From NCBI RefSeq assembly GCF_002304005.1, contig NZ_MRCQ01000007.1, forward strand, positions 1 through 64,000: 64,000 nucleotides of DNA, read 5' to 3'. This document shows positions 15,501 through 55,782 of this stretch, in pieces; position 1 is the stretch's first letter; the number at the start of each line of letters is the position of its first letter. The notes below the pieces were generated by a model. The model had not been told where the DNA came from and did no database searches. It saw only the letters and a list, made by a program, of their open reading frames with translations. The stretch comes from Flavobacterium sp. ACN6 (GTDB lineage Bacteria > Bacteroidota > Bacteroidia > Flavobacteriales > Flavobacteriaceae). Position numbers and translations under genes: made by a program.

Positions 15501-18500
15501 ATAACAATCCTAATTTTGGAACAAGTAGTCCTACAACCAACTTTGGAGGAATTATGCGCGCGCTTAACTCTACCAATTTTGAGCAGGGAAATGTCGAATA
15601 TATCCAATTCTGGGTACTTGATCCTTATGTTGGAACAGGAGAATCGCAGCCAAATAATACCGGTAAAATTTATTTCAATTTAGGTGAAGTTTCTGAAGAT
15701 GTTTTAAAAGACGGAAGAAAACAATATGAAAACGGATTAGGCCCAGATCAGGTTAAGGTAAATCCGCAGCCAATTTGGGGAGATGTTCCGGCGTCTCAAT
15801 CATTAATTTATGCATTTGATACCAATCCTGAAAACCGTAGAAACCAAGATGTCGGTTTAGATGGACTTCCAAATTCTAGCGAAGGTTCCGTTTATACAAA
15901 TTACGCAGGTGAAAGTGATCCTGCAGCAGATGATTATACGTATTATTTAAATACAGATGGAGGTGTTTTAGACCGCTATAAAAAATATAATGGAACTGAC
16001 GGGAACTCCGCAGTAAGTGTAGATGATCCAAATCGTGGTTCTACAACACTTCCAGACGTTGAAGATATTAACCGTGACAATACCATGAGTACAATCAATG
16101 CGTATTATGAATACAGTATTGATTTAAGACCAGGAATGCAGGTTGGTGAAAATTACATCACAGATGTTAGAGAAGTTAGTAATGTAGAACTTCCAAACGG
16201 ATCTACAACTAATGCGAGATGGATACAATTTAAAATTCCAGTTTCGCAGCCTCAAAATACAATTGGAAATATTACAGACTTTAGATCAATTCGTTTCATG
16301 CGTATGTTTATGACTGGATTTAATGATCAAATGACTGTTCGTTTCGGAGCGTTAGATTTAGTTAGAGGAGAGTGGAGAAGATATACAGGAACGCTTGACG
16401 CTAATGATACAAATCCAGAAAACGACGGAACTGAATTTGATGTTGCAGCAGTTAATATTCAAGAAAACAGTACGAAGTGTCCTGTAAATTATGTTATTCC
16501 TCCAGGAGTTCAAAGAGAGCAATTGTATAATAACAATACAATTATTAACCAAAATGAGCAGTCTCTAGCATTGCGAATTGGAGGTTCAGGATTAGAATAT
16601 CAAGATTCAAGAGCAGTTTTCAAAAATGTAAGTGTTGATATGCGTCAATACAAAAAGTTGAAAATGTTTCTTCACGCAGAATCACTTCCAAATGAAAGTC
16701 CGCTGGAAGATGATGAAATGATAGGATTTATTCGTTTTGGTAACGATTTTACACAGAACTTTTATCAGATCGAAATTCCATTAAAGGTAACAAGTTCGGG
16801 AGGATCGTGTTCGATAAGTCCAGATCAGGTTTGGATGGACGAAAATAATATTGATGTGGCTCTGTCATTGTTGACAAGAATGAAAATATTAGCCATGAAG
16901 ATTGATCCTAACGATGCTAGAAGAGATGTAAATGGTATTTATTATCCCGATAGGGATCCGTCTGTTGAAGGAGGTGACCAAGATGGTAAATTGACATTAG
17001 GTATTAAAGGAAATCCGAATTTTGGTTTAGTTCGAAATTTAATGGTCGGTGTAAAAAGTGCAGCAGATCATAAAGATATTAAAGGAGAAGTTTGGTTTAA
17101 CGAGCTTCGTATGTCTGATTTGGAAAACAAAGGGGGTATGGCGGCATTGTTGAATGTTGATACCAATATGGCTGACTTTGCAACTTTATCAGCTTCGGGT
17201 AAAAAGAGTACAATTGGTTTCGGTTCTCTAGAACAGGGAGCTAATGAAAGAGATCGTGAAGATATTCAGCAGTATAATATTGTAACCAATTTAAACTTAG
17301 GAAAATTACTTCCTCAGAAGTGGGGTATCAACCTGCCATTCAACTATGCGATTGGAGAAGAAGTTATTACTCCAGAATATGATCCGTTTAATCAGGATAT
17401 TAAATTAGATCAATTAATTAGAGAGACTACAGATCCAGCAGAAAAAGAAAATATCAGAACGCGTGCAGTAGATTATACTAAACGTAAAAGTATCAACTTT
17501 ATTGGGGTAAGAAAAGACAGAGCACCAGAACAGAAGCCTCATGTTTATGATGTAGAAAACTTTACATTTTCTCAATCGTATAATCAAGTAGAAAGACATG
17601 ATTATGAAGTGGAAAATTATGAGGACGAACAATCTAATACGGCGATAAATTATGCTTACACGTTTCAGCCAAAAGAAGTAGTTCCTTTCAAGAAGACTAA
17701 ATTCATGAAAACCAGTGAATATTGGAAACTTTTAAGCGATTTTAATATTAATTATCTTCCTTCGAATGTTTCTTTCAATACCAATATAATAAGACAAAGC
17801 AATCGCCAGCAGTTTAGACAAGTTGATTTGGAGGAAGGCAGTATTGGTCTTGATCCACTTTATAGAAGAAACTTTGCATTTAACTACCAATATGGTTTCG
17901 GATTTAATTTGACCAAATCATTAAAGTTAAATTATACGGCATCGTCTAATAATATCGTGAGAAACTTTTTAAATGATGATAATTCACCAAAAGAAGATTT
18001 TAACATCTGGGACGATTATTTTGATATTGGTACACCAAACCAGCACTTACAGCAATTGGTTTTAAACTATGACATTCCAATTAATAAAATTCCAATTTTT
18101 AGTTTTGTAAAAGCGAGTTATTCTTATACAGCCGATTATAATTGGCAGAGATCTTCGACGGCTTTTTCTCAATATGAAGATGCAAATGGGGATTCATGGG
18201 ATTTAGGAAATACAATTCAGAATGCGAATTCAAATACTTTAACGACAACATTAAATATGAACATGTTGTATAAGTATTTAGGATTAACTCCAGGTGCAAA
18301 AAAAGCAGCGAAAACAAAACCAATGGCACCGCCAAAACCAGGAGAAAAGATTGTTAATACGGCTAAACCAACTGTAAGCAGTAGTCCTTTTTATGATGGT
18401 TTAATCGGCGTTTTGACAAGTGTTAAAAACATTCAGATTAATTATACTAAAAACAGCGGAACTGTTCTTCCGGGATACATTCCAGGAGTTGGTTTCTTTG

Positions 18501-19801
18501 GTACATCAAAACCTTCTTTAGGATTTGTGTTTGGTAGTCAGGATGATGTACGATATGAAGCTGCTAAAAATGGCTGGCTGACCAATTATCAGGATTTTAA
18601 TCAAAATTTTACGCAGGTAAGTAATAAACTTTTGAAAGTTACTGCCAATGTAGATTTGTTTCCTGATCTAAAAATTGATTTAAATATGGATCGCGCTTAC
18701 TCTGAAAATTCATCAGAACAATATAGTGTAGATCCTGCTACAAATCAATATATGCCTTTATCACCATACACTTACGGAATGTTTTCTATTTCCACAGTTT
18801 TGATAAAAACATCTTTTTCTACGAGTACAGAAACAGAATCGGCTGCGTTTGATGATTTTAGAAGTAATCGTTTGGTTATTGCGAACCGTTTGGCCGAAGA
18901 GCGTTATGGGGCGGGGGCAGCAATTCCAAGATATGGAGATGCAAACAATCCTATTCCTGCTGAAACAGATCCGAATTATAAAATTTTTGTGGCAAACGAA
19001 GGCTACCCGATTGGTTTTTCAAAAAGTAATCAGGCGGTTTTACTGCCATCTTTCATGGCTGCTTATACAGGAGCAAACGCTTCAAGCAGTTCGACAGATA
19101 TATTTAGAAGTTTTCCTATTCCAAACTGGACTGTAAAATATAATGGTTTGATGCGTTACAAATATTTTAAAGATCATTTCAAACGTTTCTCTTTACAGCA
19201 CAATTATAGAGCTTCGTATACCATTAGTCAGTTTAGATCAAATTTTGATTATTTAGAAACACCAAACGGACAGGATGTAAATACGAACTTCTACAATAAA
19301 ACAATTATGTCAAACGTCAACTTAGTAGAGCAGTTTAGTCCGCTTATTCGTGTTGATTTCGAATTGAAGAGTTCACTTCGTTTATTAACAGAAATTAAAA
19401 AAGATCGTGCCCTGTCTATGAGTTTTGATAATAATTTGTTGACAGAAGTTAAAGGTGTAGAATACGTTGTGGGATTAGGATATCGTTTTAAAGATGTAAT
19501 TTTCTCTTCAAGATTAGCAGATAATCCGACGGGAATTATTAAAAGTGATATCAATATAAAAGCAGATTTTTCATTTAGAAATAATGAAACTCTGGTTAGA
19601 TATTTAGATTACGATAACAATCAATTGGCAGCAGGACAAAATATTTGGACTTTAAAGTTAACTGCTGATTATGCTTTCAGTAAAAACTTGACAGCAATAT
19701 TTTATTATGATCATTCGTTCTCGAAAGCAGTTATTTCAACTTCATTTCCTTTAACGAACATCAGATCAGGTTTCACACTTCGTTATAATTTTGGAAATTA
19801 A
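12587..19801 (+). CDS. sprA: SprA, T9SS outer membrane translocon and gliding motility protein
   Basis: 2404 residues, the length expected of SprA (Sov in Porphyromonas). A signal peptide (LLLVLLCGNVLRAQ) is followed by long stretches of alternating beta-strand patterning and many aromatic residues, fitting the very large single-chain barrel described for SprA. N-terminal SprA-type segments are recognisable (SAYRYDPITDRYIFT; VEMDLGLRYTKQDNP), as is the central EATIYIDDFEGSQ region. The protein ends with an outer-membrane-type strand (GFTLRYNFGN). SprA forms the channel through which T9SS cargo crosses the outer membrane and is needed for gliding. The local gene order ruvA-sprA-gcvH supports orthology with F. 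johnsoniae. ATG 12587 directly begins the signal peptide. Confidence 0.96.
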   Translation: MRKICILLLVLLCGNVLRAQVTPATQDTTKTQFSVGKIELEDPPSVLSAYRYDPITDRYIFTNSVDGFSINYPLILTPKEYEDLVLKESRRDYFRKKSDAIDGKKAGSEAAKKDLLPRYYINSSLFESIFGSNTIDVKPTGSVEMDLGLRYTKQDNPSFSPRNRSSLTFDFDQRISMSLMGKIGTRLEVNANYDTQSTFAFQNLFKLAYTPTEDDIVQKVEVGNVSMPLNSTLIRGAQSLFGVKTQLQFGKTTITGVFSEQKSQTKSIVAEGGGTVQNFDLFALDYDNDRHFFLSQYFRNKYDSSLRNYPFIDSRVQITRLEVWVTNKQNRVTTNNNNLRNIIALQDLGEGQVSGVPDSEVVVITNSAGFFNNPIDSPTDNTNNKYDPAAIGRAGSYLNSNIREIVTAGSGFNNANISEATDYSVLENARKLTTNEYTFNSQLGYISLQQRLANDEILAVAFEYTVGGKVYQVGEFGSDGVDATVVTGTNNTNQAIVTQSLVLKMLKSSLTNVNNPVWNLMMKNVYQIPQAYQIKQEDFRLNILYTDPSPINYIDPVPGTTFPANPSPDDRVEKTPLLNVFNLDRLNYNNDPQSGGDGFFDYVPGVTVDVQNARIIFTTKEPFGELLFRKLNTGTAGENYNDPTTYNDNQRKYVFRNMYRSTQAGALQDSDKNKFLLRGKYKSSGSNGIPIGAFNVPQGSVVVTAAGRVLIEGIDYSVDYQLGRVQILDPSLQASNTPIEVSLENNSIFGQQTRRFMGVNIERKMSENFVLGATLLKMTERPFTQKSSYGQESVNNTIFGFNGNYSTEVPFLTRLANKLPNIDTDVPSNLSIRGEVAFLKPDAPKASDFEGEATIYIDDFEGSQTTIDMRSAYAWSLASTPFVNSINDNTFNANSNTLEYGYKRAKLAWYTIDPVFYASKPSGISNNDLSFNSTRRIYSRELYPNTDIAQGQIQVVNTLDLTYYPSDRGPYNNNPNFGTSSPTTNFGGIMRALNSTNFEQGNVEYIQFWVLDPYVGTGESQPNNTGKIYFNLGEVSEDVLKDGRKQYENGLGPDQVKVNPQPIWGDVPASQSLIYAFDTNPENRRNQDVGLDGLPNSSEGSVYTNYAGESDPAADDYTYYLNTDGGVLDRYKKYNGTDGNSAVSVDDPNRGSTTLPDVEDINRDNTMSTINAYYEYSIDLRPGMQVGENYITDVREVSNVELPNGSTTNARWIQFKIPVSQPQNTIGNITDFRSIRFMRMFMTGFNDQMTVRFGALDLVRGEWRRYTGTLDANDTNPENDGTEFDVAAVNIQENSTKCPVNYVIPPGVQREQLYNNNTIINQNEQSLALRIGGSGLEYQDSRAVFKNVSVDMRQYKKLKMFLHAESLPNESPLEDDEMIGFIRFGNDFTQNFYQIEIPLKVTSSGGSCSISPDQVWMDENNIDVALSLLTRMKILAMKIDPNDARRDVNGIYYPDRDPSVEGGDQDGKLTLGIKGNPNFGLVRNLMVGVKSAADHKDIKGEVWFNELRMSDLENKGGMAALLNVDTNMADFATLSASGKKSTIGFGSLEQGANERDREDIQQYNIVTNLNLGKLLPQKWGINLPFNYAIGEEVITPEYDPFNQDIKLDQLIRETTDPAEKENIRTRAVDYTKRKSINFIGVRKDRAPEQKPHVYDVENFTFSQSYNQVERHDYEVENYEDEQSNTAINYAYTFQPKEVVPFKKTKFMKTSEYWKLLSDFNINYLPSNVSFNTNIIRQSNRQQFRQVDLEEGSIGLDPLYRRNFAFNYQYGFGFNLTKSLKLNYTASSNNIVRNFLNDDNSPKEDFNIWDDYFDIGTPNQHLQQLVLNYDIPINKIPIFSFVKASYSYTADYNWQRSSTAFSQYEDANGDSWDLGNTIQNANSNTLTTTLNMNMLYKYLGLTPGAKKAAKTKPMAPPKPGEKIVNTAKPTVSSSPFYDGLIGVLTSVKNIQINYTKNSGTVLPGYIPGVGFFGTSKPSLGFVFGSQDDVRYEAAKNGWLTNYQDFNQNFTQVSNKLLKVTANVDLFPDLKIDLNMDRAYSENSSEQYSVDPATNQYMPLSPYTYGMFSISTVLIKTSFSTSTETESAAFDDFRSNRLVIANRLAEERYGAGAAIPRYGDANNPIPAETDPNYKIFVANEGYPIGFSKSNQAVLLPSFMAAYTGANASSSSTDIFRSFPIPNWTVKYNGLMRYKYFKDHFKRFSLQHNYRASYTISQFRSNFDYLETPNGQDVNTNFYNKTIMSNVNLVEQFSPLIRVDFELKSSLRLLTEIKKDRALSMSFDNNLLTEVKGVEYVVGLGYRFKDVIFSSRLADNPTGIIKSDINIKADFSFRNNETLVRYLDYDNNQLAAGQNIWTLKLTADYAFSKNLTAIFYYDHSFSKAVISTSFPLTNIRSGFTLRYNFGN

Positions 19802-42134: not shown

Positions 42135-42183
42135 AAAAATTCCAAATTCCAAGAGATATGCCTTTTTGGAATTTGGAATTTTT
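42135..42183. terminator. Long bidirectional terminator hairpin
   Basis: An 18-bp perfect stem: AAAAATTCCAAATTCCAA (42135-42152) and its complement (42166-42183) around a 13-nt loop, between the convergent carbonic anhydrase and LytTR genes. Confidence 0.88.
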
Positions 42184-42205: not shown

Positions 42206-42922
42206 TCACAGGTTGATTTTTTCAAAGAAAGTACTTTTATAACTTTCGCTGATAGGAATTCGTTTATCGCTTATTAAAACTTTATTCTTCTGAATAGATT
42301 TTACATGTTTGATATTAATAATATACGATCTGTGAATTCTTGCAAACCCTTTATTCGAAAGCAGATTTTCTAATTTAATCAAACTTATTAAAGTCAAAAT
42401 AAATTTATTATCTGTGGTGTAAATCTTAACGTAATCTTTTAGTCCTTCAATAAAAAGAATATCAGCAAAATTCAATTTTACATTTTCATATTCTGCACGA
42501 ACAAACATAAAATCCTGTTCAATTTCTGGAGCATTTGTATTTTCAGAAAGGGCCTGATTTGCCATTGCGGGCTGTAAAACCTGTTGCGCTCTCACAACTG
42601 CTTTTAAAAACCGGTGAAAAGGAATTGGTTTTACTAAATAATCTACCGCACCAAGATTAAATCCTTCTACAGCATAATCAGAATAGGCAGTTGTAAAAAT
42701 AACCAAAGGCTTTTTTTCGATTGTATTTAAAAAGTCAATTCCAGAAAAATGAGGCATTTGAATATCCAGAAAAACTAAATCAACATTATTCTGATTGATA
42801 AATGAAACGGCATCAATTGCATTGTTGAAAGAACTAATCAATTCAAGCGAGTCTATTTTTTTAACAAAATCCTGCAGTAATTCTACTGCTAAAGGCTCAT
42901 CGTCAATAATTACACATTTCAT
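42206..42922 (-). CDS. LytTR-type response regulator
   Basis: 238 residues. Receiver domain (1-120): acidic pair IIDDEP, phospho-acceptor Asp in LVFLDIQMP, Thr in IFTTAYSDYAVEGF and Lys in DYLVKPIPF. LytTR DNA-binding domain (about 140-238): DILFIEGLKDYVKIYT, FARIHRSYIINIKHV. It is the likely partner of the LytS-like kinase two genes upstream, separated by the dioxygenase-like gene. It may also have its own promoter (42958-42965). Confidence 0.95.
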   Translation of the reverse strand: MKCVIIDDEPLAVELLQDFVKKIDSLELISSFNNAIDAVSFINQNNVDLVFLDIQMPHFSGIDFLNTIEKKPLVIFTTAYSDYAVEGFNLGAVDYLVKPIPFHRFLKAVVRAQQVLQPAMANQALSENTNAPEIEQDFMFVRAEYENVKLNFADILFIEGLKDYVKIYTTDNKFILTLISLIKLENLLSNKGFARIHRSYIINIKHVKSIQKNKVLISDKRIPISESYKSTFFEKINL

Positions 42923-42957
42923 TTTTTCCGAATTAAGGTTACATTTGTTTTGGCAGT

Positions 42958-42965
42958 CAAAAGTA
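42958..42965 (-). promoter_or_regulatory. -7-like element before LytTR gene
   Basis: TACTTTTG on the minus strand (TAnnTTTG), 35 bp upstream of the regulator's ATG, inside the 103-bp gap after the dioxygenase-like gene. Confidence 0.45.
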
Positions 42966-43025
42966 ATTTGAAACCAGTAAATTAAGTTCTAAAGTTTTCA
43001 TAAAATACGGGTTAAGAAATCACAA

Positions 43026-43736
43026 TTATGCGTTAACTGTAATAGTTTTAGTTAGAGTATAACCATCTGTTAGATTGCCAGTTATAGTTGCAAGCTCGTC
43101 AGATAAACTGTCTGAAAAAACATTATCTCTTGTATTGGCAGTATCGGCTTGTCCGTGGGCGGCATAATTTGTGCTGGAATATACTGTACTAGAAATGGTT
43201 TCTGGAAAAGCAATTTGAGTTACTAATAATGAACTTCCCGAACTCGATAAAACTTCAACATGCACATGTGGCGCTCTTCCTTGATACCAGCCTGGATAAA
43301 TCGAAATAAAAGAAACATCTCCATTGGTGTCAGAAGTTTGTCTTCCTCTTAAAAAATGAACCGAAGTATAATCTGTCTGCTGCATTTGTGTACCGCCATA
43401 TTCAGAATAATTTCCGTCTTTGTCGCAATGCCAGATATCAACTAAAACTCCCGAAAGAGGAGCACAGTCATTATTTTTGTTTTCAATCTTTAAATTAATC
43501 AGCAAGGCAATTCCAATTCGGTCAGATTTAATGTTTTCTAAAACCAGCTGACTTGGAGTTTTGATTGGAAAAGGACCTTTTGTTTCTGAAGGAGAAACAG
43601 TACAGCTCCCATCTCCAGAGTTGCCTGAGTCGGTTTCGTCATGATCGTTTTTTGAACATGATTCTAATAATGTTGAAGCTGTTGCTAACGAAGCAATGCC
43701 TAAAATACCATTTCGGATGAATTTTTTTCTGTCCAT
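43026..43736 (-). CDS. Intradiol ring-cleavage dioxygenase-like lipoprotein
   Basis: 236 residues. The N-terminus DRKKFIRNGILGIASLA resembles a Tat signal (RKK instead of RR) ending in a lipobox-like ESC. The body matches the protocatechuate 3,4-dioxygenase fold: SETKGPFPI, LVDIWHCDKDGNYSEYGG, FLRGRQTSDTNGDVSFISI and GWYQGRAPHVHVEV. Candidate iron ligands are Tyr in NYSEY, Tyr in GWY and His pair in PHVHV. Such exported homologues in Bacteroidota have no proven substrate. It is flanked by the kinase (13 bp) and the LytTR regulator, and a link to signalling is inferred. Confidence 0.9.
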   Translation of the reverse strand: MDRKKFIRNGILGIASLATASTLLESCSKNDHDETDSGNSGDGSCTVSPSETKGPFPIKTPSQLVLENIKSDRIGIALLINLKIENKNNDCAPLSGVLVDIWHCDKDGNYSEYGGTQMQQTDYTSVHFLRGRQTSDTNGDVSFISIYPGWYQGRAPHVHVEVLSSSGSSLLVTQIAFPETISSTVYSSTNYAAHGQADTANTRDNVFSDSLSDELATITGNLTDGYTLTKTITVNA

Positions 43737-43748
43737 AATCAGTTTTGT

Positions 43749-44861
43749 TTAATGTATTGCGGTTTTAATTTCATCTAATTTTAAATTCAAATGAACTCGG
43801 TAATAGGCATTATCCTGAGTAATGGTTAGTTCGTGTGCGCTAGGGTATAATAAATCGAGACGACTTTGAATGTTTACCAATCCAATTCCCGAATTATCCG
43901 GGTCTTTTACATAATTTTCGATGGTATTCTCTATCCAAAAATCAAGATTATTATCTGTGATTAAGATTTTAATTTTTACGTGAGCAGCACCTTTATAATC
44001 TGTTCCATATTTAAAGGCATTTTCGACAAATGAAATCAATAATAATGGCTCGATAAATTTGTTTCTTGTATCGCCATGTACGTTAATTACAATGTCTTCA
44101 ATGTTGTTTAATCTCAGTTTTTGCAGTTCAATATAATTCTGAATATAGTTTACCTCTTTTTCTAAAGCCACCGTTTTATTGTCTGTCTCGTAGAGCATAT
44201 AGCGCATAAGTTCAGACAAGGTCACGATGGCATCAGGGACCAAATCAGATTTTTTGTGTGCCAAAGAATAAATACTATTTAATGAATTAAATAAGAAATG
44301 CGGATTGGTTTGTTTACGCAGGTATATTAATTCTGTATTCGTTCTATGTGTTTCGGCAATCAGCTTATTCTGCTGATTATTATAAAATTCAGTTAGTGTT
44401 CTAATAATTGCGCTGATTGTGATAATCAAAATATAGAAAAATGACGGGCCAATTTTAAAGAAAAGCGGTTGTCTCATCTCAATTCTAGGCGCCATTCTGT
44501 CCCGCGGAAAAAAATGCGGATCGTGCTGCATCATTTGCGGAGGCATAACATTTTCGGGTCTTAAATGTCTAAATTCAGGAATAAAATAGTTTATTCTGAT
44601 AATCATAAACGCTGCTATAAGACCAAAGGCCACGATAAAATAGAGCCAGTATTTTTTTTGTAAAAGATAGATCGGAACCAGATAAAAATAGTTCAAATAG
44701 AACAATACAATCCCTGTTGCCCATTGCACATAAAAGTCATTGTTGATCTTAAATGGACTTTCGTAAAACTGAATTAACGAAGTCAAAATAAAGAAAACCC
44801 ATATCGCACAATGAAATAAGATTCTGTTATAGCTGTTATTTTTAATGGTATCTATCTGCAT
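43749..44861 (-). CDS. LytS/YehU-type sensor histidine kinase
   Basis: 370 residues. Four transmembrane helices in the first about 155 residues, with a long Pro/Met/Arg-rich periplasmic or loop segment between helices (ENVMPPQMMQHDPHFFPRDR). His_kinase domain: KQTNPHFLFNSLNSIYSLAH with the phospho-acceptor His, then the ATP-binding N-box LLLISFVENAFKYG and GIGLVNIQSRLDLLYP. The pairing with the LytTR regulator downstream is typical of this class. It abuts the DUF4907 gene with no gap. Confidence 0.95.
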   Translation of the reverse strand: MQIDTIKNNSYNRILFHCAIWVFFILTSLIQFYESPFKINNDFYVQWATGIVLFYLNYFYLVPIYLLQKKYWLYFIVAFGLIAAFMIIRINYFIPEFRHLRPENVMPPQMMQHDPHFFPRDRMAPRIEMRQPLFFKIGPSFFYILIITISAIIRTLTEFYNNQQNKLIAETHRTNTELIYLRKQTNPHFLFNSLNSIYSLAHKKSDLVPDAIVTLSELMRYMLYETDNKTVALEKEVNYIQNYIELQKLRLNNIEDIVINVHGDTRNKFIEPLLLISFVENAFKYGTDYKGAAHVKIKILITDNNLDFWIENTIENYVKDPDNSGIGLVNIQSRLDLLYPSAHELTITQDNAYYRVHLNLKLDEIKTAIH

Positions 44862-45197
44862 TTACAATTTTATTTTTAATAAAATTAAATCTTTTTTGGT
44901 TACCGTTGGAGATAAGTTTTCTAGGAGTTTCTCTTTAACAAGATTGGCCGTTTTTATCGCATCGTTTTGTGTTGCAAAACTTTTGTTTTCACTTATCACC
45001 GGAATAATGGATTGCTTGATTACTATTTTTTCTTTGTATGAAATCGTGTATCCCCATCCAGAATTTGTTTTAAAAACATCAGATTTTAAAACTTCTTTTT
45101 TTGCGCACGAAGCAAAAAAAAGCAGGAATACAAAAAACATCAAATTCTTCTGGAAAGCGTTCCAGAAGAATTTTTTAATATTAATTATCATCGTCAT
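44862..45197 (-). CDS. DUF4907 family lipoprotein
   Basis: 111 residues from ATG 45197, overlapping the Kelch gene end by 17 bp. The core matches DUF4907: NSGWGYTISYKEKIVIKQSIIPVI, then FATQNDAIKTANLVKEKL. A lipoprotein signal (MFFVFLLFFASC) starts at Met20 (ATG 45140), a likelier true start because a 13-bp perfect hairpin (45143-45172) covers the first 20 codons of the longer frame. From 45140 the protein has 92 residues. Function is unknown; it is found next to Kelch and LytS genes. Confidence 0.8.
   Translation of the reverse strand: MTMIINIKKFFWNAFQKNLMFFVFLLFFASCAKKEVLKSDVFKTNSGWGYTISYKEKIVIKQSIIPVISENKSFATQNDAIKTANLVKEKLLENLSPTVTKKDLILLKIKL
45143..45172. terminator. Strong hairpin between Kelch and DUF4907 genes
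   Basis: AATTCTTCTGGAA-AGCG-TTCCAGAAGAATT, a 13-bp perfect stem. A T run follows on the plus strand; on the minus (coding) strand the T run is interrupted. It could attenuate operon transcription or block antisense transcription. Confidence 0.6.
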
Positions 45198-46188
45198 TTT
45201 GTTCTTCTAATGGTCTAAACTCCCACGCATCATCAAAATATGTGGTGCCAATTCTTCCTAACATATAAAAACCACGATTATTAATTGCAAAACCTACAGC
45301 ATCGGTTCTTGTAGCGCCTTCCATTGGAGTTCTTTCAACCCATAAATCAGTTGTTGGGTTGTATTCCCAAATTGTTTTTATATTTTCTCCTCCTACAACA
45401 TATCCTAATCCATTCATAGAAAAACTTGATGCATTAGAACGTACGATTGCATACTCATCATTATACGTGTAATCATCGTCGGTATCTTTATCAATATCTC
45501 TTTTTCTAGTCCAAACATCAGTTGATGGATCAAATTCCCAAAAATCTTCTTGATAAACTCCGTTATTTACACCAGTTGCCAAATACGCTTTATCAGCAAT
45601 TACAAAAACTGTTGCATTACGTCTTTTGTTTCCACTAAAACCATTTACGAGTGTCCATGTATTAGCTTGGTCATCATATTGATAAAAGTCTTTCAAATAA
45701 TTTCCATCATAACCAGTGCCAAAATAAGCTTTACCACCAGCTTGAAAACCAACTGCTGCATAACGACCCGTTCCTGCAAAATCAGTTTTTTGTGTCCAGC
45801 TGTTCGCAGTAGGATCATATTGATAAAAATCTTTCAGTTTATTTGTTCCGTCGTAACCAAGGCCAACATATCCTTTATCATTTAATGCAAAGCTAGAAGC
45901 AGAACTTCTTCCTACGCCGGCAAAATCTGCTTTTTGTTCCCAATAATCACCAGTTGAGTTATAAGCCCATAAATCTTTTAAGTAAACATCGCCTGTATAA
46001 CCTCCGGCAACATAAGCATAATCGCCAATAACGAAACTTGTCGCACTAGATCTTGCAGGACCATCAAAGGCCGATTTTTTAATCCAGTTTCCCATTAAAT
46101 CGTCATCATCATCGTCATTACTGCAGCTTATAAAAAAGAGGCTCGAAAAAAGAGCGGTGAATAAAATTCCTTTTTTTAGATTAATCAT
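45181..46188 (-). CDS. Kelch-repeat lipoprotein
   Basis: 335 residues. Lipoprotein signal (LFFISC) with an Asp run after the Cys (NDDDDDD), then about six Kelch motifs of about 47 residues, each with a Gly pair or Gly-Tyr turn and a Trp-containing strand (DYAYVAGGYTGDVYLKDLW, KGYVGLGYDGTNKLKDFYQY, YLATGVNNGVYQEDFWEF). They should close into a beta-propeller exposed at the surface or in the periplasm. It precedes the DUF4907 and kinase genes and could be their sensing or ligand-binding part, which is inference. Confidence 0.92.
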   Translation of the reverse strand: MINLKKGILFTALFSSLFFISCSNDDDDDDLMGNWIKKSAFDGPARSSATSFVIGDYAYVAGGYTGDVYLKDLWAYNSTGDYWEQKADFAGVGRSSASSFALNDKGYVGLGYDGTNKLKDFYQYDPTANSWTQKTDFAGTGRYAAVGFQAGGKAYFGTGYDGNYLKDFYQYDDQANTWTLVNGFSGNKRRNATVFVIADKAYLATGVNNGVYQEDFWEFDPSTDVWTRKRDIDKDTDDDYTYNDEYAIVRSNASSFSMNGLGYVVGGENIKTIWEYNPTTDLWVERTPMEGATRTDAVGFAINNRGFYMLGRIGTTYFDDAWEFRPLEEQNDDDN

Positions 46189-46203
46189 AGTGTATTTAAT
46201 TAT

Positions 46204-47046
46204 TTATTGTTTGTATTTGATCCCCAATCCTAAAATGTAACCGTTCCCCGAATTATAGTCGTAAACTTTATGGTTACTATTGTCTAATAAGTTGTATTTT
46301 TTATTAAAATCATAACCCGCTTTGAAATTTAAAAACCAATTGCCAGCTGCGTTTCTTTCATACTCAAGGGCAGTTGTCATTTGCGATAAAACTGCTTTTT
46401 CGGCACTGTTATTTTTGTCAGATGTCTCATCCAAATGATAGAAATTTCCATTGAAACTATTGGTCAGACTGAATTTATTTCGGTCATTATTTGAATATGA
46501 AATTTTTGAATCTGGAAATCCAATTTTCAGATTGGTTTTCTCATTCATTTTATAATCAAAAGCAACAATCGGAGTAAATTTTGGTGCACCAAAAATTGAG
46601 GTTCGGCCCGCCCCAAGTATTACATTTAATTTTGAACTGATTTGCTGTTTTATCTCCAGATTTCCTAAAACAGTAAGAGCTGAAAAATCTAAATTTCCTT
46701 GAAAATTTGCTGTTGGAACAACCGAAAAGCCCCATTTTGTTTTTTCTGATATTTCGCCCGAATATTCAAATGTGTTTTGAATTTGGTTGAATTTATCCTG
46801 ATCTGCATAAAAATTATAAGGATTAAATTCATAGTTCACTTTCAAATTCGAATAGGATAATGTGTTCGTTATTTTATTTTTTGTTCCTAATTGTTTCTGA
46901 TAAAAAAGGGCAGCATCTGTTGTGTTAAAATTTATTTTTTCTGTCGGCTCAGTTTTGATATTGAAATAAGCACCAAAACTTTCCTGCGCTTTCATGGTTA
47001 AAAACGAAATCAAAAAAAGAGAACAAATTAAAAACCGTACTTTCAT
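46204..47046 (-). CDS. Outer membrane beta-barrel protein (DUF6268-like)
   Basis: 280 residues. Signal peptide (LICSLFLISFLTMKAQ) followed by alternating polar/hydrophobic strands (KITNTLSYSNLKVNYEF, KWGFSVVPTANFQGN, GNWFLNFKAGYDF) and a final GYILGLGIKYKQ strand. The assignment to the DUF6268 barrel family is by appearance and genomic company, not by a search. It is the first gene of the minus-strand run with Kelch, DUF4907 and LytS genes and has a -7 element directly upstream. Confidence 0.75.
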   Translation of the reverse strand: MKVRFLICSLFLISFLTMKAQESFGAYFNIKTEPTEKINFNTTDAALFYQKQLGTKNKITNTLSYSNLKVNYEFNPYNFYADQDKFNQIQNTFEYSGEISEKTKWGFSVVPTANFQGNLDFSALTVLGNLEIKQQISSKLNVILGAGRTSIFGAPKFTPIVAFDYKMNEKTNLKIGFPDSKISYSNNDRNKFSLTNSFNGNFYHLDETSDKNNSAEKAVLSQMTTALEYERNAAGNWFLNFKAGYDFNKKYNLLDNSNHKVYDYNSGNGYILGLGIKYKQ

Positions 47047-47063
47047 TATTTATTTTATTGGCT

Positions 47064-47071
47064 CAAAATTA
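47064..47071 (-). promoter_or_regulatory. -7 promoter element of barrel-Kelch-kinase run
   Basis: TAATTTTG on the minus strand (TAnnTTTG), 17 bp upstream of the barrel gene ATG. Confidence 0.55.
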
Positions 47072-47277: not shown

Positions 47278-48606
47278 ATGCACAAGTTTATATTGATTCT
47301 TCTTTTTGTACTAACCTTATTTTCATGCGGTACAGACACAGATACGGGTGAGTTTACTGTCGGTTCAGATTATTTGGCTTTAAGCAATAAAGTGATTATG
47401 ATTGATACTGTTACAGTCGAGATGTCAACTATAAATTTTGATTCGCTTATTACCTCAAGCCGAAGCAGAATTTTGATCGGAAATTATGATGATCCAATTT
47501 TCGGAAAAGTGAAGTCAGACAGCTATTTTCAGCTTTCTACGACTACCTACGCATTAAATGGCGCCTCTTCAGATACACAAGCGATAAATTATGTTTTTGA
47601 TTCGATTTCCATGATTCTTAAATATGATAATTATTATTACGGAGATACCACAAAGGTTCAAACTTTTAATATTCATCGACTAATTCAAAAAGTGAAACCT
47701 AATACCGATAACGACAGCTTTTACAATAATTCAACTTTAAGCTACAGTCCAGAAAGCCTCGGTAAAATATCTTTTACGCCAAGGCCTACTCAAAAAGATT
47801 CTATTAATATTAAAATGGATGACGAATTTGGAGAGGCACTTTTTCAAAAAATTAAAAAAAGAGAAATTACAGATTTTGACAGTTTTACAGAATATTTAAA
47901 GGGACTTGTTTTAGTTCCCGAAACAGGCGGTTCTTCTAATGTCATAGGATTTAGCGTGCCAACAAGTAAAGTGCGGATGTATTATTCTAAATACCGTGCA
48001 GATGCAGATGAGCTTTCCTATATAATTGACTTTACGATCGCCGATATTGCAAAACAGTTTAACTCTATTTCGTTGGATAAAACAGGAACGTTATTGCAAA
48101 ATCTCCCCATTTCCAGCAGTTATCTCCCAAGTACGGTGACCAGTAATCAAGGATTTATTCAGTCGGGGACTGGTGTGGCGTGTCGAATCGATTTCCCCAA
48201 TATTAAGCAGTTTAAAAAGATATCGACGAATGGGGCGATCGTCAATGCAGAACTGATTCTGAAACCAGTAAACAATTCATATTCTGAGAAATATCCTTTA
48301 GAAGATTCCCTTGCAGTTTACGTAGGCGATAATCTGAATAGAGTAAGTGGTGCATTGGTAAATTCTGCGGGTACAACTGTTTATGGGTTATTAAATAAGA
48401 AGAGTGATGAGTTCAACGAAAATGTTGCGTATACCATTCCTATTGGAAGTTTTCTCCAAAGCGAAATGCTCAAAACATCAGATTCGAGATCGTCTCTAAT
48501 ATTAACGCTGCCGGGAATTTCCAAATCTGTTGACCGAATCGTTTTGGCAGATCAAAAAAACGCGAACAATAAAATTCAGCTCAAAGTTTATTACATCTCT
48601 TATTAA
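47278..48606 (+). CDS. DUF4270 family lipoprotein
   Basis: 442 residues. Lipobox LFSC at residue 17, followed by the DUF4270 pattern: FTVGSDYL, TVEMSTINFDSLITS, RILIGNYDDPIFGKVKSDSYFQL, and near the end IVLADQKNANNKIQLKVYY. This family of surface lipoproteins is widespread in Bacteroidota, and some lie next to outer membrane barrel genes as here (0-bp gap). No enzymatic motif is visible. Confidence 0.9.
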   Translation: MHKFILILLFVLTLFSCGTDTDTGEFTVGSDYLALSNKVIMIDTVTVEMSTINFDSLITSSRSRILIGNYDDPIFGKVKSDSYFQLSTTTYALNGASSDTQAINYVFDSISMILKYDNYYYGDTTKVQTFNIHRLIQKVKPNTDNDSFYNNSTLSYSPESLGKISFTPRPTQKDSINIKMDDEFGEALFQKIKKREITDFDSFTEYLKGLVLVPETGGSSNVIGFSVPTSKVRMYYSKYRADADELSYIIDFTIADIAKQFNSISLDKTGTLLQNLPISSSYLPSTVTSNQGFIQSGTGVACRIDFPNIKQFKKISTNGAIVNAELILKPVNNSYSEKYPLEDSLAVYVGDNLNRVSGALVNSAGTTVYGLLNKKSDEFNENVAYTIPIGSFLQSEMLKTSDSRSSLILTLPGISKSVDRIVLADQKNANNKIQLKVYYISY

Positions 48607-49842
48607 ATGAAAAATAAAATAATTTTATGGAGCTGCTTCATTTTAATGTCGCTGACTTCGTTTGCTCAAAGTATTTCCAGCTCTCCGTATTCATTGTATG
48701 GAGTGGGAAGTTTGTATGAATCAGATTTTGGTTATCTGCCGTCGACAGGTTCTTCTGGAATTGCCCTGCCTTCGGATATTTTTATTAATAATTTAAATCC
48801 GGCATCTTTGGGATTTATGTACCAAAATCACTTTCTATTTGATATAGGAGGAAAAGCAATAGCAACAACCTATCAAAGTGGAAATAGATCAGAGAAACGA
48901 AATAATTTTCAATTTTCGCATATTGCTTTTGCTTTTCCAGTAACTAAAAAATCTGGTTTTAGCCTTTCGCTTCGTCCTTATTCCAGTTCCGTTTTTAAAA
49001 TCTCAAATTTAAAACTTCCTATAGCAGATAGTCAGGAATATTATTATTTGACCGCTCAAGGATCCGGCGGATTAAATAATTTGGATTTCTCGTATGGATA
49101 CCGATTTGGAAAAAAATTGACGTTGGGAGCAACAGGAACTGTTCTTTTTGGAAACACAGTTGATGATCGTGCTTTTTTAATTGCAAATACAATTACAACA
49201 ATACATAAAAAAACAGATTACAGTGGAGTTCGCGCCATATTAGGTGCGCAATATAAAGTAGATTCTACTTTTACAATTGGTACAACGTTTAAGGCTCCTA
49301 CAAGGGTAAAGGCTTCTAAAGTACAGTCTGTAACCAGTATTGCAGATGAAGTAGAAACTTCTGTAGAAACCGATAAAGCTTCGGATACGGACGACTATTA
49401 TATGCCATTAGAAATGGGCTTTGGAATCAGCAAGCGATTTAAAAATAATTTGAACGTAACTTTAGATTACGAAAAAAGCTTTTGGGAAGACACGAAACAG
49501 TCGGAACTATATGGTGATTTTGTGAATCAAGATCGTTTTGCACTAGGATTTACTTACAGCACCAAAAAGAATGTCCGAAAATATTGGGATAGAGTAGGCT
49601 ATGCTGCAGGTTTAAGTTATGATACAGGATATCTCGAAGTTGATGGAAAACGCGTGAACAATGCATCCTTTTCAATTGGACTTAATCTTCCTGTAGATAA
49701 TACTTTTTCTACTCTAAATGTTTCGTATTCTTACGGTCAAAAAGGAAGAATAGCAAATGATCTGATAAAAGAAAATTACCATAAAATTTCGCTTAATTTA
49801 TCGCTGGACGGAATTTGGTTCGTAAAACGAAAGATTGAATAA
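48607..49842 (+). CDS. Outer membrane beta-barrel protein, FadL/OMPP1-like
   Basis: 411 residues. Signal peptide (LMSLTSFAQ), then SPYSLYGVGSLYESDFGYL and INNLNPASLGFM, a pattern common in Bacteroidota barrel proteins related to OMPP1/FadL. The rest is predicted beta strands (NLDFSYGYRFGKKLTLGA, NNLNVTLDYEKSFWED) ending in ISLNLSLDGIWFVKRKIE. It is probably co-transcribed with the DUF4270 lipoprotein. Substrate is unknown. Confidence 0.8.
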   Translation: MKNKIILWSCFILMSLTSFAQSISSSPYSLYGVGSLYESDFGYLPSTGSSGIALPSDIFINNLNPASLGFMYQNHFLFDIGGKAIATTYQSGNRSEKRNNFQFSHIAFAFPVTKKSGFSLSLRPYSSSVFKISNLKLPIADSQEYYYLTAQGSGGLNNLDFSYGYRFGKKLTLGATGTVLFGNTVDDRAFLIANTITTIHKKTDYSGVRAILGAQYKVDSTFTIGTTFKAPTRVKASKVQSVTSIADEVETSVETDKASDTDDYYMPLEMGFGISKRFKNNLNVTLDYEKSFWEDTKQSELYGDFVNQDRFALGFTYSTKKNVRKYWDRVGYAAGLSYDTGYLEVDGKRVNNASFSIGLNLPVDNTFSTLNVSYSYGQKGRIANDLIKENYHKISLNLSLDGIWFVKRKIE

Positions 49843-52361: not shown

Positions 52362-55034
52362 TTAAAATTGTTGTCCAATAATAAAGTGAGTTTCCCATCC
52401 ATTAGCTTTTGTTTGTCCAGGAAGAGCATCAAAACCGTAACCAAAGTCAATACCTAACAATCCAAAAGCAGGCATAAATACACGTAAACCAGCACCAGCA
52501 GAACGATTCAAATCAAAAGGATTGTAATCTTTAAATGTTGGATATGATGAACCAGCTTCTAAGAATGTTAAAGCATATATAGAAGCAGATGCTTTTAATG
52601 TAATTGGATAACGTAACTCCATTGAGAATTTATTATAAATTGTTGCTCCAATAGGATCACCAACAGAGTTAACAGGGGTTAATGAGTTATTTGGATAACC
52701 TCTTAACTGAATAGTTTCTCTACCATCCATTGAGTAGTTTGCCATACCATCTCCACCTAAGTAAAAACGCTCAAAAGGAATTACACCTCTATCTTGATTG
52801 TAAGCACCTAAGAAACCAAATTCTGTCAATGTTCTTAATACTAACTTTCCATAAACTTTAGTATACCAATCTCCTTTAAATTTAACTTTATAGTACTCCA
52901 GCCAATTGTATTTTTTCTGATCAACTTTAGCAATATCTGTATCTGCACTTGAATAATCAGATCCTACACTTACATAACCAGTTTGTCCGTTTACTGTTTC
53001 TGTTTTAACATAATCACCATTGTTAAGTGGTTTTCCGTCTACACCACTTCCTGATGTACCAGTATATTGTGTTTTATAATCTTTTTGGTTTTGTAAATCT
53101 CCGTAATCAACTCCATTAAATAAAGAATAAGGAGCTGTAAACTTAGCAGAAATACTAAACTCAGAACCATACATTGGGAATATTGGGTTTACCCCTTTAT
53201 TACTTCTTGAAAGTCCTATCGTATAAGCTAAGTTTCTAGATGCACCATTACCAAAGGTAAATAAACCTGTATTATAATTATTCAAATCATAATGCTGATA
53301 ACTTACAGATTGTGATAATACAAAGTAGTCATCTGGAACAGTTAATCGTTTAGCTAAACCAACTTGTACTGTAAAAATATTAAAACTTTTGTTTCTATCA
53401 ACGGTTCTAGTAATGTAATTGTTAAGAAATTGCTTACTGTAAGAAATCGATGAACTAAATTGTACTGGTTTCTTTCCTCCAAACCAAGGTTCTGAGAAAG
53501 AGACACTATACGTTTGGAAATAGGTACTTCCTTGTAAACGAAGTGCAACTTTTTGCCCATCTCCCATTGGTAAAGGCTTATAAGCTTCTTTATCAAATAG
53601 TTTTCTTGCCGAGAAGTTGTTAAACGATAGTCCTAATGTTCCGATGAAACCACCACCGCCGTAACCTCCTTGAAGTTCGACCTGGCTAGATCCTTTTTCT
53701 ACAACATTGTATTCGATATCAACAGTTCCTGCTCCAGCATCTACGTTTTTGAATTTTGGATCAATAGCTTCTGGGTCGAAGAAACCTAATTGTCCAATTT
53801 CACGAATAGTTCTTACTAACTGTTCTTTACTATATTTTTCACCTGGTTTTGTTCTTAACTCACGGTAAATAACATGGTCATTTGTTTTGTCGTTTCCAAC
53901 AACTGTAATCTTGTTGAAATAGGCAATTGGACCTTCTGTAACTCTAATCTCAAAATCGATTGTATCGTTAACAGTTTTAACCTCTACAGCGTTAATATTT
54001 GAGAATAAATAACCATTATTTTGGTATAAATTGGTAATATCTTCTGCGTCTGGTTTTGTTTTATCAGCGATTCTTTTTTCTAATAAAACACCATTGTAAG
54101 TTTCTCCTTTTTTAATTCCTAAATAACGGCTTAAAAGTTGATCTGAATAAACAGTATTTCCTAAGAACTTAATATTTCCAAAATAGTATTTGTTTCCTTC
54201 TTCTACATTAATCTTAATGGCAAGCGTGTTTTTCTCCTTATTATATTTCACAGAATCGTATATAATACGAGCATCACGATATCCTTTTTCTTTATAAGAA
54301 GCGATAACTTTTTCTAAGTCGGTTTTGTATTTTTCTGGAATAAATTTAGAAGCTTTAAAGACACGGATAAAGTTTTTCTGTTTGGTATCTTTCATTGCAG
54401 AACGAAGCTGGCTTCCTGTAAGCTGCTTGTTTCCAGTAAAGTCAATACTGCTTATTTTTACTTTATCTCCTTTATCTATTCGAACAAGCATATTAACTTG
54501 ATGTCCGTTGATAGTATCTGGAGTATTGGTTATAGTAACTTTTGTATTATAAAAACCTTCTTTTTTGTATTTGTTTTCAATGTAGTTTTTAGTCGTAGTA
54601 ATTAAGTTTTCATTGACAATTTTGTTTTTTGTCAAATTGTTATCCTTAATTAAAGCTTCTACTTTGCTTTTTTTGACTCCAACGAATTTAACTTCGTTCA
54701 ATTTGGGAAGTTCGATAATATTTAAATCTAAATAAATACTATCATTTTCTACCTTATTAACATAGAAAGCAATCTCATCAAAAAGGCCTAGTTTACCTAA
54801 TTTTTTAATTGCACTACTAATTTCTTCTCCAGGTACTGTGATTTCCTGACCTTTTTGAAGGCCTGAAAAGGTTACAACGGTCTGTTCATTGAAGCTTATT
54901 TTACCAACAACGGAAACTTTGGCCAGAATATATTTTTTTCCTTGATCAAAAGGAACTCTTTCTTGTGCTTTAACTTGTGAAAAACTACCCAAAAGTAATA
55001 GGGTAAGGGCTATTTGTATTTTTTTTTGCAACAC
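52362..55034 (-). CDS. bamA: Outer membrane protein assembly factor BamA
   Basis: 890 residues from GTG 55034, which begins the signal peptide (VLQKKIQIALTLLLLG) 7 bp past the uppS stop. The longer frame from 55145 overlaps uppS by over 100 bp and buries the signal, so it is rejected. Five POTRA-type domains (about 30-400; typical lines LNEVKFVGVKKSKVEALI, YYFGNIKFLGNTVYSDQLLS, AYFNKITVVGNDKTNDHVI) lead to a barrel with the VELQGGYGGGGFIG start and the LRGYPNNSL motif of strand 16 region, ending in IIGQQF. It is the essential insertase for outer membrane barrels. Confidence 0.95.
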   Translation of the reverse strand: MLQKKIQIALTLLLLGSFSQVKAQERVPFDQGKKYILAKVSVVGKISFNEQTVVTFSGLQKGQEITVPGEEISSAIKKLGKLGLFDEIAFYVNKVENDSIYLDLNIIELPKLNEVKFVGVKKSKVEALIKDNNLTKNKIVNENLITTTKNYIENKYKKEGFYNTKVTITNTPDTINGHQVNMLVRIDKGDKVKISSIDFTGNKQLTGSQLRSAMKDTKQKNFIRVFKASKFIPEKYKTDLEKVIASYKEKGYRDARIIYDSVKYNKEKNTLAIKINVEEGNKYYFGNIKFLGNTVYSDQLLSRYLGIKKGETYNGVLLEKRIADKTKPDAEDITNLYQNNGYLFSNINAVEVKTVNDTIDFEIRVTEGPIAYFNKITVVGNDKTNDHVIYRELRTKPGEKYSKEQLVRTIREIGQLGFFDPEAIDPKFKNVDAGAGTVDIEYNVVEKGSSQVELQGGYGGGGFIGTLGLSFNNFSARKLFDKEAYKPLPMGDGQKVALRLQGSTYFQTYSVSFSEPWFGGKKPVQFSSSISYSKQFLNNYITRTVDRNKSFNIFTVQVGLAKRLTVPDDYFVLSQSVSYQHYDLNNYNTGLFTFGNGASRNLAYTIGLSRSNKGVNPIFPMYGSEFSISAKFTAPYSLFNGVDYGDLQNQKDYKTQYTGTSGSGVDGKPLNNGDYVKTETVNGQTGYVSVGSDYSSADTDIAKVDQKKYNWLEYYKVKFKGDWYTKVYGKLVLRTLTEFGFLGAYNQDRGVIPFERFYLGGDGMANYSMDGRETIQLRGYPNNSLTPVNSVGDPIGATIYNKFSMELRYPITLKASASIYALTFLEAGSSYPTFKDYNPFDLNRSAGAGLRVFMPAFGLLGIDFGYGFDALPGQTKANGWETHFIIGQQF

Positions 55035-55041
55035 TAAAAAA

Positions 55042-55782
55042 TTATTTAATTTGTTCACTGGTCTTTCCAAATCTACGTTCTCTTTTTTGATAACTAATAA
55101 TAGCCTCATATAAATCTTGGTCTTTAAAGTCTGGCCACAAGACATTAGTAAAATACAATTCTGCGTAGGCGATCTGCCACAGCAAAAAATTACTTATTCT
55201 ATGTTCTCCACTTGTTCGTATTAATAAATCTACGTCTGGTAAATTTTGCGTGTAAAGATGCTCATTTATAATTGAATCGTCAATATTGTCTATTGAAATT
55301 ATATTATTTTTAACTTTATCACTAATAGCCTTTACAGCATTTACCAGCTCCTCTCTAGATCCATAGCTTAAAGCAAGAGTAAGAGTTAATCGAGAATTGT
55401 TTTTGGTTTTTTCGATAACATCCAAAAGTTCTTTTTGGGCTGTTTTTGGTAATTTATCAAGATTTCCAATTGCATTAAGTCGAATATTGTTTTCTTGAAG
55501 TGTAACAAGCTCTTTTTTTAATGAATTAATCAATATTTTCATCAATGCCTGCACCTCAATTTTTGGGCGGTTCCAATTTTCTGTAGAGAAAGCGTACAGC
55601 GTTAAATATTCAATTCCCAGCTTGGCCGAAGTCTTGATTATTTCTTTTACTGATTTTGTGCCGTTTTCATGTCCAAACGCACGCAGGAAGCCTTGTTGTT
55701 TTGCCCAGCGTCCGTTACCGTCCATAATAATGGCCAGGTGTTTTGGCAAGTTTGTGTGATCTATCGATTCTATTAAATTCAT
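55042..55782 (-). CDS. uppS: Undecaprenyl-type isoprenyl transferase (UppS)
   Basis: 246 residues from ATG 55782 (MNLIESIDHTNLPKH); the frame continues to 55815 but would overlap the DUF6089 gene by 32 bp. Motifs: HLAIIMDGNGRWAK with the catalytic Asp, YLTLYAFSTENWNRP, LALSYGSREELV and DLLIRTSGEHRISNFLLWQ. It makes C55 undecaprenyl diphosphate, carrier for peptidoglycan and surface glycans. The stop is 7 bp before the bamA start, and the start is one base after the DUF6089 stop, so translation is probably coupled. Confidence 0.95.
   Translation of the reverse strand: MNLIESIDHTNLPKHLAIIMDGNGRWAKQQGFLRAFGHENGTKSVKEIIKTSAKLGIEYLTLYAFSTENWNRPKIEVQALMKILINSLKKELVTLQENNIRLNAIGNLDKLPKTAQKELLDVIEKTKNNSRLTLTLALSYGSREELVNAVKAISDKVKNNIISIDNIDDSIINEHLYTQNLPDVDLLIRTSGEHRISNFLLWQIAYAELYFTNVLWPDFKDQDLYEAIISYQKRERRFGKTSEQIK

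Follow-up and report, generated by a model that had tools for sequence, protein, structure and literature searches.

An optional, predicted exported intradiol dioxygenase in a conserved Kelch-DUF4907-LytS-LytTR cassette of Flavobacterium

Secreted intradiol dioxygenases are represented by the DOG enzymes of Tetranychus urticae, which are described as cleaving a broad range of plant catechols with a role in detoxification (PMC9167512), and by SACTE_2871 of Streptomyces. LytS/LytTR systems, the second point of comparison for this study, pair a His_kinase (PF06580) protein with a LytTR regulator in one cluster. We know of no signals for most LytS-type kinases in Bacteroidota. Here, we describe a locus in which the two meet, on the minus strand of a 64,000-nucleotide stretch of Flavobacterium sp. 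ACN6 (contig NZ_MRCQ01000007.1, positions 1 to 64,000; "the window" hereafter), where a predicted exported dioxygenase is encoded between a LytS-type kinase and a LytTR response regulator, downstream of genes for a barrel-like outer-membrane protein, a Kelch-propeller lipoprotein, and a DUF4907 lipoprotein (Table 1). The enzyme resembles the Tetranychus DOGs and SACTE_2871 in fold, sequence profile, four iron ligands, and the presence of an export signal, but it differs from them in the predicted lipoprotein type of that signal and in its linkage to LytS/LytTR; in other species, its relatives are also linked to two further families, c1 and c2. The LytS-LytTR pair (LytSR) differs from known LytS/LytTR systems in being embedded with Kelch, DUF4907, and an optional dioxygenase and in the proline-rich loop of its kinase. 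Among named NCBIfam models, the best scoring for the regulator was BtsR, at 134 bits against a curated cut-off of 246 that was not reached. Searches of open-licence full texts returned no description of the Kelch-DUF4907-LytSR cassette, no mention of DUF4907, and no match for intradiol ring-cleavage dioxygenase with Flavobacterium (with or without LytTR); the combination of intradiol, secreted, histidine kinase, and Bacteroidetes likewise gave none, whereas DUF4270 was matched in one paper. Wider searches of these texts also brought up no title on the link between dioxygenase and LytSR, which, for open-licence papers, does not establish novelty.

A conserved cassette and its accessory dioxygenase

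Conservation was assessed in a same-genus sample of 121 genomes, a family sample of 299, and a phylum sample of 395. DUF4907 was present in 38 of the same-genus genomes, and all 37 of these loci besides the window were fetched. The order Kelch-DUF4907-LytS-LytTR was kept in 35 of the 37, the exceptions being L056, which lies at a contig end, and L078, in which the order of Kelch and DUF4907 is reversed and LytS is lacking. The barrel gene was likewise found in 35 of the 37, and both flanks (NifU, PorP, and a hexapeptide protein on one side; DUF4270, OMP2, and murI on the other) were kept except in L078 and at contig ends. In the family sample, where DUF4907 was found in 40 genomes, we examined 38 loci outside the genus. 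Kelch, LytTR, DUF4270, and OMP2 were present in every one, a DUF4907 open reading frame (ORF) was called in 37, and LytS was in place in 37, with that of L273 a few genes off. The barrel, labelled by similarity to the window protein, was seen in only 14 of the 38 and is thus optional outside the genus. A search with the window LytTR (E ≤ 1e-75) recovered an orthologue in 37 of the 121 same-genus genomes, all of which carry DUF4907 (G089 is the sole DUF4907 genome not among them), so that within the genus the regulator was not found without its partners. An earlier note, made from this sequence without database searches, had named kinase-regulator pairs occurring mostly without the other genes as an outcome that would speak against its own reading, and these 37 genomes point the other way. 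We conclude that Kelch-DUF4907-LytS-LytTR beside DUF4270 and OMP2 is a real conserved unit; the last two, absent from the earlier note's list, are members of the conserved neighbourhood.

The dioxygenase occupies the slot between LytS and LytTR in 8 of the 37 fetched same-genus loci and in the window (9 of 38). Among the best 80 of 572 confirmed places, from a search for named relatives that is enriched for carriers, at least 41 window-type loci have a slot dioxygenase. On a tree of 74 loci, 48 of them with dioxygenase, 11 changes between presence and absence are needed. Scraps of the gene were detected in 4 of 26 spacers that lack it: L057 retains a start-like and an end-like piece, and L060, L044, and L045 retain an end-like piece. 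Slot-type dioxygenases form one clade (8 rows, support 99). The simplest history would be an old gain followed by repeated deletion, with deletion directly apparent only in the sequences of those four loci. A dioxygenase outside the slot was found in 0 of 9 slot-bearing and 14 of 28 slot-empty genomes (Fisher p = 0.0066), a pattern that does no more than suggest a swap between the slot gene and a copy elsewhere, since the 5 independent phylogenetic pairs are too few for a decision.

Recurrent linkage of the dioxygenase to LytS/LytTR

Dioxygenase-positive genomes numbered 17 of 299 in the family sample and 47 of 395 in the phylum sample. We fetched 39 loci from other genera: the family sample supplied 16, its full set, and 23 came from the 35 positive phylum genomes, the 12 omitted being remote; L219, fetched alongside them, belongs to the genus of the window. 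Of the 39, 37 were scored (L220 and L239 were not), and LytS or LytTR lay within three genes of the dioxygenase in 15. Fourteen of these belong to the 27 loci at ≥42% identity and one to the 10 remote loci. In the ≥42% group, LytTR occupied 14 of 162 places one to three genes away versus 3 of 222 places four to eight genes away; for comparison, the genome of the window has only 14 LytTR genes in all. The same linkage was present in 17 of 34 named loci from outside the genus and in 13 of 18 same-genus loci outside the Kelch slot, although these locus sets overlap (L138 and L200 are an example). Furthermore, we observed five placements of a dioxygenase around the Kelch cassette: between LytS and LytTR as in the window, between Kelch and DUF4907 (L203/L246), 3′ of LytTR beyond a small opposite ORF (L202/L250), 5′ of Kelch at L138/L200, whose cassette had no DUF4907 that could be detected, and behind OMP2 (L139). 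Kelch-linked dioxygenases from outside Flavobacterium do not group together in the enzyme tree, where support is low.

The regulators resolve into two groups. Outside the Kelch locus, 34 of 39 rows of dioxygenase-linked LytTR fell in one clade (support 82), and in a cleaned tree a Kelch-type clade of 26 rows (support 94) stood beside a dioxygenase-type clade of 28 rows (support 85). A single clade uniting the Kelch type and the dioxygenase type was neither established nor rejected (p = 0.10 for LytTR, p = 0.41 for LytS). A LytTR of the second clade (≥65% identity) was present in 15 same-genus genomes, and the dioxygenase was in the same cluster in 13; in G074 the two genes are split between contigs, that of the dioxygenase lying at the end of its contig, and G073 has no dioxygenase. 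The second LytTR clade is therefore nearly dedicated to the enzyme. Dioxygenase and cassette also co-occur, in 23 of 26 same-genus dioxygenase genomes (Fisher p = 3e-12) and in 11 of 17 in the family (p = 4e-7), with descent and genome size ignored in both tests. Altogether, the tie between dioxygenase and LytS/LytTR exceeds chance, and it involves two regulator clades and several families of the phylum.

We favor LytSR-linked surface removal of catechols, in which the cassette is an envelope-sensing two-component system and the dioxygenase an optional output enzyme, and we put its probability at about 0.5. The envelope-sensing half draws on conservation and domain knowledge, and the catechol-removal half draws on the recurrent linkage and the enzyme class. 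LytS would lie in the inner membrane with its proline-rich loop facing the periplasm, sense envelope stress, and signal to LytTR. The exported dioxygenase, where present, would cleave catechol-type compounds outside the cytoplasm before they cause harm. Both LytSR clades would respond to a chemical stress that the enzyme relieves, and its action would close a negative feedback loop on LytSR. The repeated coupling to two LytSR clades would be best explained if the pairs respond to a stress relieved by the enzyme; control of the dioxygenase by LytSR, the feedback, and sensing of a phenol by the kinase are our inferences. An enzyme tied to two LytTR clades points to a concrete and cheaply testable ligand class, the catechols. 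Since isolates Root935 (L102) and Leaf82 (L112), among the best 80 of 572 places, carry the gene order of the window, a system that disarms catechols could be relevant where bacteria live among plant phenolics.

Several observations weigh against surface removal of catechols under LytSR. No LytS or LytTR lies within three genes of the dioxygenase in 13 of the 27 closer relatives and 9 of the 10 remote ones, and at L079, L080, L147, L154 to L156, L140, and L210 a Crp-type regulator sits directly beside the enzyme gene instead of LytSR. The regulators of L212, L213, L230, L161, and L176 fall outside both LytTR clades, so the linkage counts include chance neighbours. In the kinase tree, the Kelch clade has a support of 98 and the dioxygenase-linked clade is unsupported at 16. 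The co-occurrence p values carry no correction for genome size or descent, the sequence of the LytS loop is not conserved, and no convincing pair of LytTR direct-repeat boxes was seen by eye in the blocks upstream of the barrel and LytTR genes. Lastly, the dioxygenase is absent from the slot in 29 of 38 genus-sample loci and, within six genes, from 36 of 38 family loci (present in 2), which indicates that the cassette does without the enzyme. The earlier note's view of a ring-cleaving enzyme within a two-component operon is partly borne out, in the recurrent tie to LytS/LytTR with its two clades and in the secreted catechol-cleaving enzymes that are the closest solved relatives, but its six genes are not one conserved unit: co-occurrence extends to Kelch-DUF4907-LytS-LytTR and stops short of the dioxygenase and, in the family, of the barrel.

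These absences fit an explanation that we regard as unlikely, if a serious contender: that Kelch-DUF4907-LytSR monitors the state of the outer membrane or of surface lipoproteins rather than phenols, with the dioxygenase a passenger using its promoter. The cassette stays intact after dioxygenase loss, and two more outer-membrane-type genes always adjoin it in the family sample. However, five placements of the enzyme and a nearly dedicated second LytTR clade would be hard to obtain by chance, and the high share of same-genus dioxygenase genomes with the cassette also argues against a passenger, although genome size and descent may confound that share.

Among other recurrent neighbours, counted within five genes at 95 partly overlapping dioxygenase loci outside the slot, LytTR-like genes were found at 48 loci, LytS-like at 45, c1 at 39, c2 at 28, and Crp-like at 13. 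The c1 family, which occurs in loci of other species and is absent from the window, is pirin-like, and its C-terminal cupin matches Pirin/quercetinase PF17954 (E = 5e-9 for the L081 copy, L081:7271-7972). No alignment column holds His in ≥40% of the 39 c1 sequences; the metal site of quercetinases is therefore apparently missing, in which c1 would differ from that family. The c2 family, of ~170 amino acids, adjoins the dioxygenase in several families (L081:6767-7267, L093:7375-7887, and 26 more loci). Two copies tested had no Pfam match, and an AlphaFold model of low confidence (pLDDT, the predicted local distance difference test, 69.9; 7 sequences) had no Foldseek match at E ≤ 0.001. The neighbours bear on a further explanation, which we consider improbable, in which the dioxygenase acts on catecholate siderophores or iron-binding catechols and LytSR responds to iron or to competitor siderophores. 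Catechol chemistry and an exported enzyme would suit it, and a table of the iron stimulon in Bacteroides thetaiotaomicron lists a DUF4270 family gene (PMC10434189). However, this mention is a single table row, and none of the recurrent neighbours could be recognised as a siderophore or iron gene, with most of the unlabelled clusters among them lacking identification. Separately, in L176, a metagenome-assembled genome titled uncultured Bacteroides, the adjoining gene is nearly identical to that of Ohtaekwangia koreensis (L161), so the title may be wrong.

The enzyme and the two-component pair

The window enzyme scores 46.3 bits against Dioxygenase_C (PF00775; cut-off, 27.3). Y110, Y151, H157, and H159, presumably the four iron ligands (two Tyr, two His), are invariant in 38 of 38 sequences, and these positions fit the alignment to 6bdj. 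In a structural model with a pLDDT of 76.6 (below 50 for residues 8 to 42), the best match was to the Tetranychus structures 5vg2/6bdj, followed by Streptomyces SACTE_2871 (4ilv); the Foldseek comparison to 5vg2 gave E = 1.5e-19 and template modeling scores of 0.70 by query and 0.81 by target. The sequence profile likewise placed the Tetranychus structures first (E = 3e-32 to 6bdj) and SACTE_2871 next. By simple N-terminal patterns, 36 of 38 sequences have an RK/KR-x-F motif and 31 have a lipobox-like site, and the dioxygenase is probably exported as a lipoprotein. A type IX sorting domain is carried by one relative, L096. The residues SKNDHDE that follow the lipobox Cys loosely resemble published surface-export signals, and CSNDDDDDD at the Kelch lipobox also resembles them; the published signals are SDDFE and SDDDD (PMC5080379). 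Surface location, export route, and a catechol substrate would be consistent with these features. We also considered flexirubin as a substrate. It is not known to be a 1,2-diol, which makes this unlikely.

Two other roles for the enzyme can be weighed here. It might serve as a co-receptor that binds surface aromatic ligands and informs LytS, rather than as an output enzyme, as its position 12 nucleotides (nt) from LytS and its recurrence beside LytSR would allow. None of the 38 sequences departs from the four iron ligands or from the motif around them, as catalysis would predict, and most Kelch-type LytS genes have no dioxygenase, making this role quite improbable. Ordinary catabolism, in which the dioxygenase takes the first step in use of an aromatic growth substrate, is suggested by membership in the intradiol family. 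Nevertheless, the enzyme has an export signal, its gene is the single PF00775 match in the 5.1-Mb host genome (which has 14 LytTR and 9 LytS-type matches), and none of the recurrent neighbours that bear a label is a catabolic gene. Muconolactone isomerase (PF02426) had no match in this genome, in a search whose control matched 2 of 14 genomes, which also argues against plain catabolism; we consider that explanation very unlikely.

A simple hydropathy script placed four membrane helices in LytS, with a proline-rich loop ahead of the last helix. The loop has at least four prolines in 33 of the 41 Kelch-type kinases and 25 of the 28 kinases of dioxygenase type, versus 1 of 7 paralogues in the same genome. 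Met and His are abundant in the window loop (HLRPENVMPPQMMQHDPHFFP...), a feature that the majority of the other kinases in either group do not share, and a general metal-sensing role was rejected on that account. By narrow patterns, the H-, N-, and G-boxes were matched in 37, 41, and 18 of the 41 Kelch-type kinases and in 25, 23, and 6 of the 28 dioxygenase-type kinases (one a fragment). A strict pattern for the phospho-acceptor of the receiver was matched by all 34 dioxygenase-type regulators but by 15 of the 26 Kelch-type ones; the window protein has FLDIQMP at this site. In Flavobacterium johnsoniae, one or the other gene of the pair FJOH_RS09515/09520 was mutated in each of five Burkholderia-coevolved lines, according to a published table (PMC10197871). 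The mutations C44T and G46A given there are at odds with codons 15 and 16 of the window regulator (TTA CTG), and we do not equate this regulator with a member of that pair.

Transcript anatomy and layout of the window

Downstream of the Kelch stop lies a hairpin that matched no Rfam family. In all 77 Flavobacterium loci examined, the 60-nt stretch 3′ of Kelch had a folding z score below −2 (median, −5.5; some genomes counted twice). The corresponding counts were 0 of 75 for the barrel, 5 of 69 for LytS, 18 of 75 for LytTR, and 2 of 76 for OMP2. Across 28 distinct aligned loci, 99.1% of cells pair, and 6 of 12 pairs changed on both sides; 0 of 500 shuffles reached any of the measures. Outside the genus the post-Kelch fold is weaker (z < −2 in 9 of 39). 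There, 15 of 38 loci have a T-tailed hairpin no more than 150 nt from Kelch, and such hairpins also occur after DUF4907 (15 of 37), LytS (4 of 44), and the barrel (2 of 15). The hairpin is a candidate attenuator between Kelch and DUF4907-LytS. Its position also suggests that DUF4907 may start at ATG 45140 (MFFVFLLFFASC...), directly 3′ of the hairpin, rather than at 45197; with starts as called, the two genes overlap by 17 nt.

A block of ~55 nt ending in TACTTTTGA precedes LytTR in a consensus of 68 spacers, 49 with dioxygenase and 19 without. Seven short spacers of divergent species (12 to 52 nt), which have no room for the block, were left out of the consensus, and L071 and L063 depart from it. 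An element similar to TACTTTTGA precedes the barrel gene. Given this promoter-like block in the 103-nt gap, the six genes need not be one transcript, and together with the covarying hairpin it makes a single simple six-gene transcript unlikely. In the group to which the window belongs, these features would be explained if transcripts were weighted toward Kelch, with less read-through into DUF4907, LytS, and the dioxygenase, and if LytTR had its own start. More tentatively, and at less than even odds, the locus may represent a widespread class of sense-and-destroy LytSR systems in Bacteroidota, in which a surface enzyme destroys the aromatic signal of the kinase. This class would have been recruited at least twice, to different LytSR clades, and would count among its parts a ~170-amino-acid family and a pirin-like protein without the metal site; in Flavobacterium the hairpin would set the ratio of exported Kelch to signalling proteins. 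We do not claim an inverted repeat upstream of LytTR (AACCAGTA...TACTGGTT) as a site, because its left arm is poorly kept among divergent species and comparably loose matches can be seen at other places. Sigma-70-type promoters were not in excess in a generic scan (19 versus 23.7 in shuffles), which says little because Bacteroidota promoters differ.

A check of ORFs recovered the six minus-strand genes at the positions that the earlier note had given them (42206 to 47046), Pfam agreed with its assignments to barrel, Kelch, DUF4907, LytS, dioxygenase, and LytTR, and its −7 element is present upstream of the barrel gene. Besides the overlap of Kelch and DUF4907, the gaps are 15 nt (barrel to Kelch), 0 nt (DUF4907 to LytS), 12 nt (LytS to dioxygenase), and 103 nt (dioxygenase to LytTR).

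Table 1. Features of the cassette and its divergent neighbours in the window
Feature	Position	Strand	Evidence or remark
DUF6268 barrel-like outer-membrane protein, first gene	46204..47046	-	E 1.6e-11
Kelch-propeller lipoprotein	45181..46188	-	Kelch repeats E 1.8e-27
RNA hairpin 3′ of Kelch stop	45142..45173	-	12-14 bp stem, T-rich tail, conserved
DUF4907 lipoprotein (alternative start ATG 45140)	44862..45197	-	E 3.8e-22
LytS-type sensor kinase	43749..44861	-	His_kinase PF06580, E 5.2e-24
Predicted exported intradiol dioxygenase, accessory	43026..43736	-	Dioxygenase_C E 4.3e-12; RK-x-F motif and lipobox
Promoter-like block before LytTR	42957..43013	-	TTACTTTTGA at 42966-42957; conserved with and without dioxygenase
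LytTR response regulator, Kelch-type clade	42206..42922	-	Response_reg E 3.3e-21, LytTR E 5.5e-19
-7-like element before barrel gene, TAATTTTG	47064..47071	-	
Divergent DUF4270 protein	47278..48606	+	Adjoins cassette in 38/38 family loci
OMP2, outer-membrane-protein-like	48607..49842	+	Adjoins DUF4270 in 38/38 family loci; no Pfam match

A long AT-rich palindrome with a T tail, probably a terminator, occupies positions 42136 to 42182, where the LytTR gene and the hexapeptide gene converge. The only Rfam matches, well short of the gathering score, fell at an AT-rich palindrome. Elsewhere, the window encodes a large protein with a type IX signal (250 to 4578), SprA of type IX secretion (12587 to 19801), and a BamA-like Omp85 protein (52362 to 55145).

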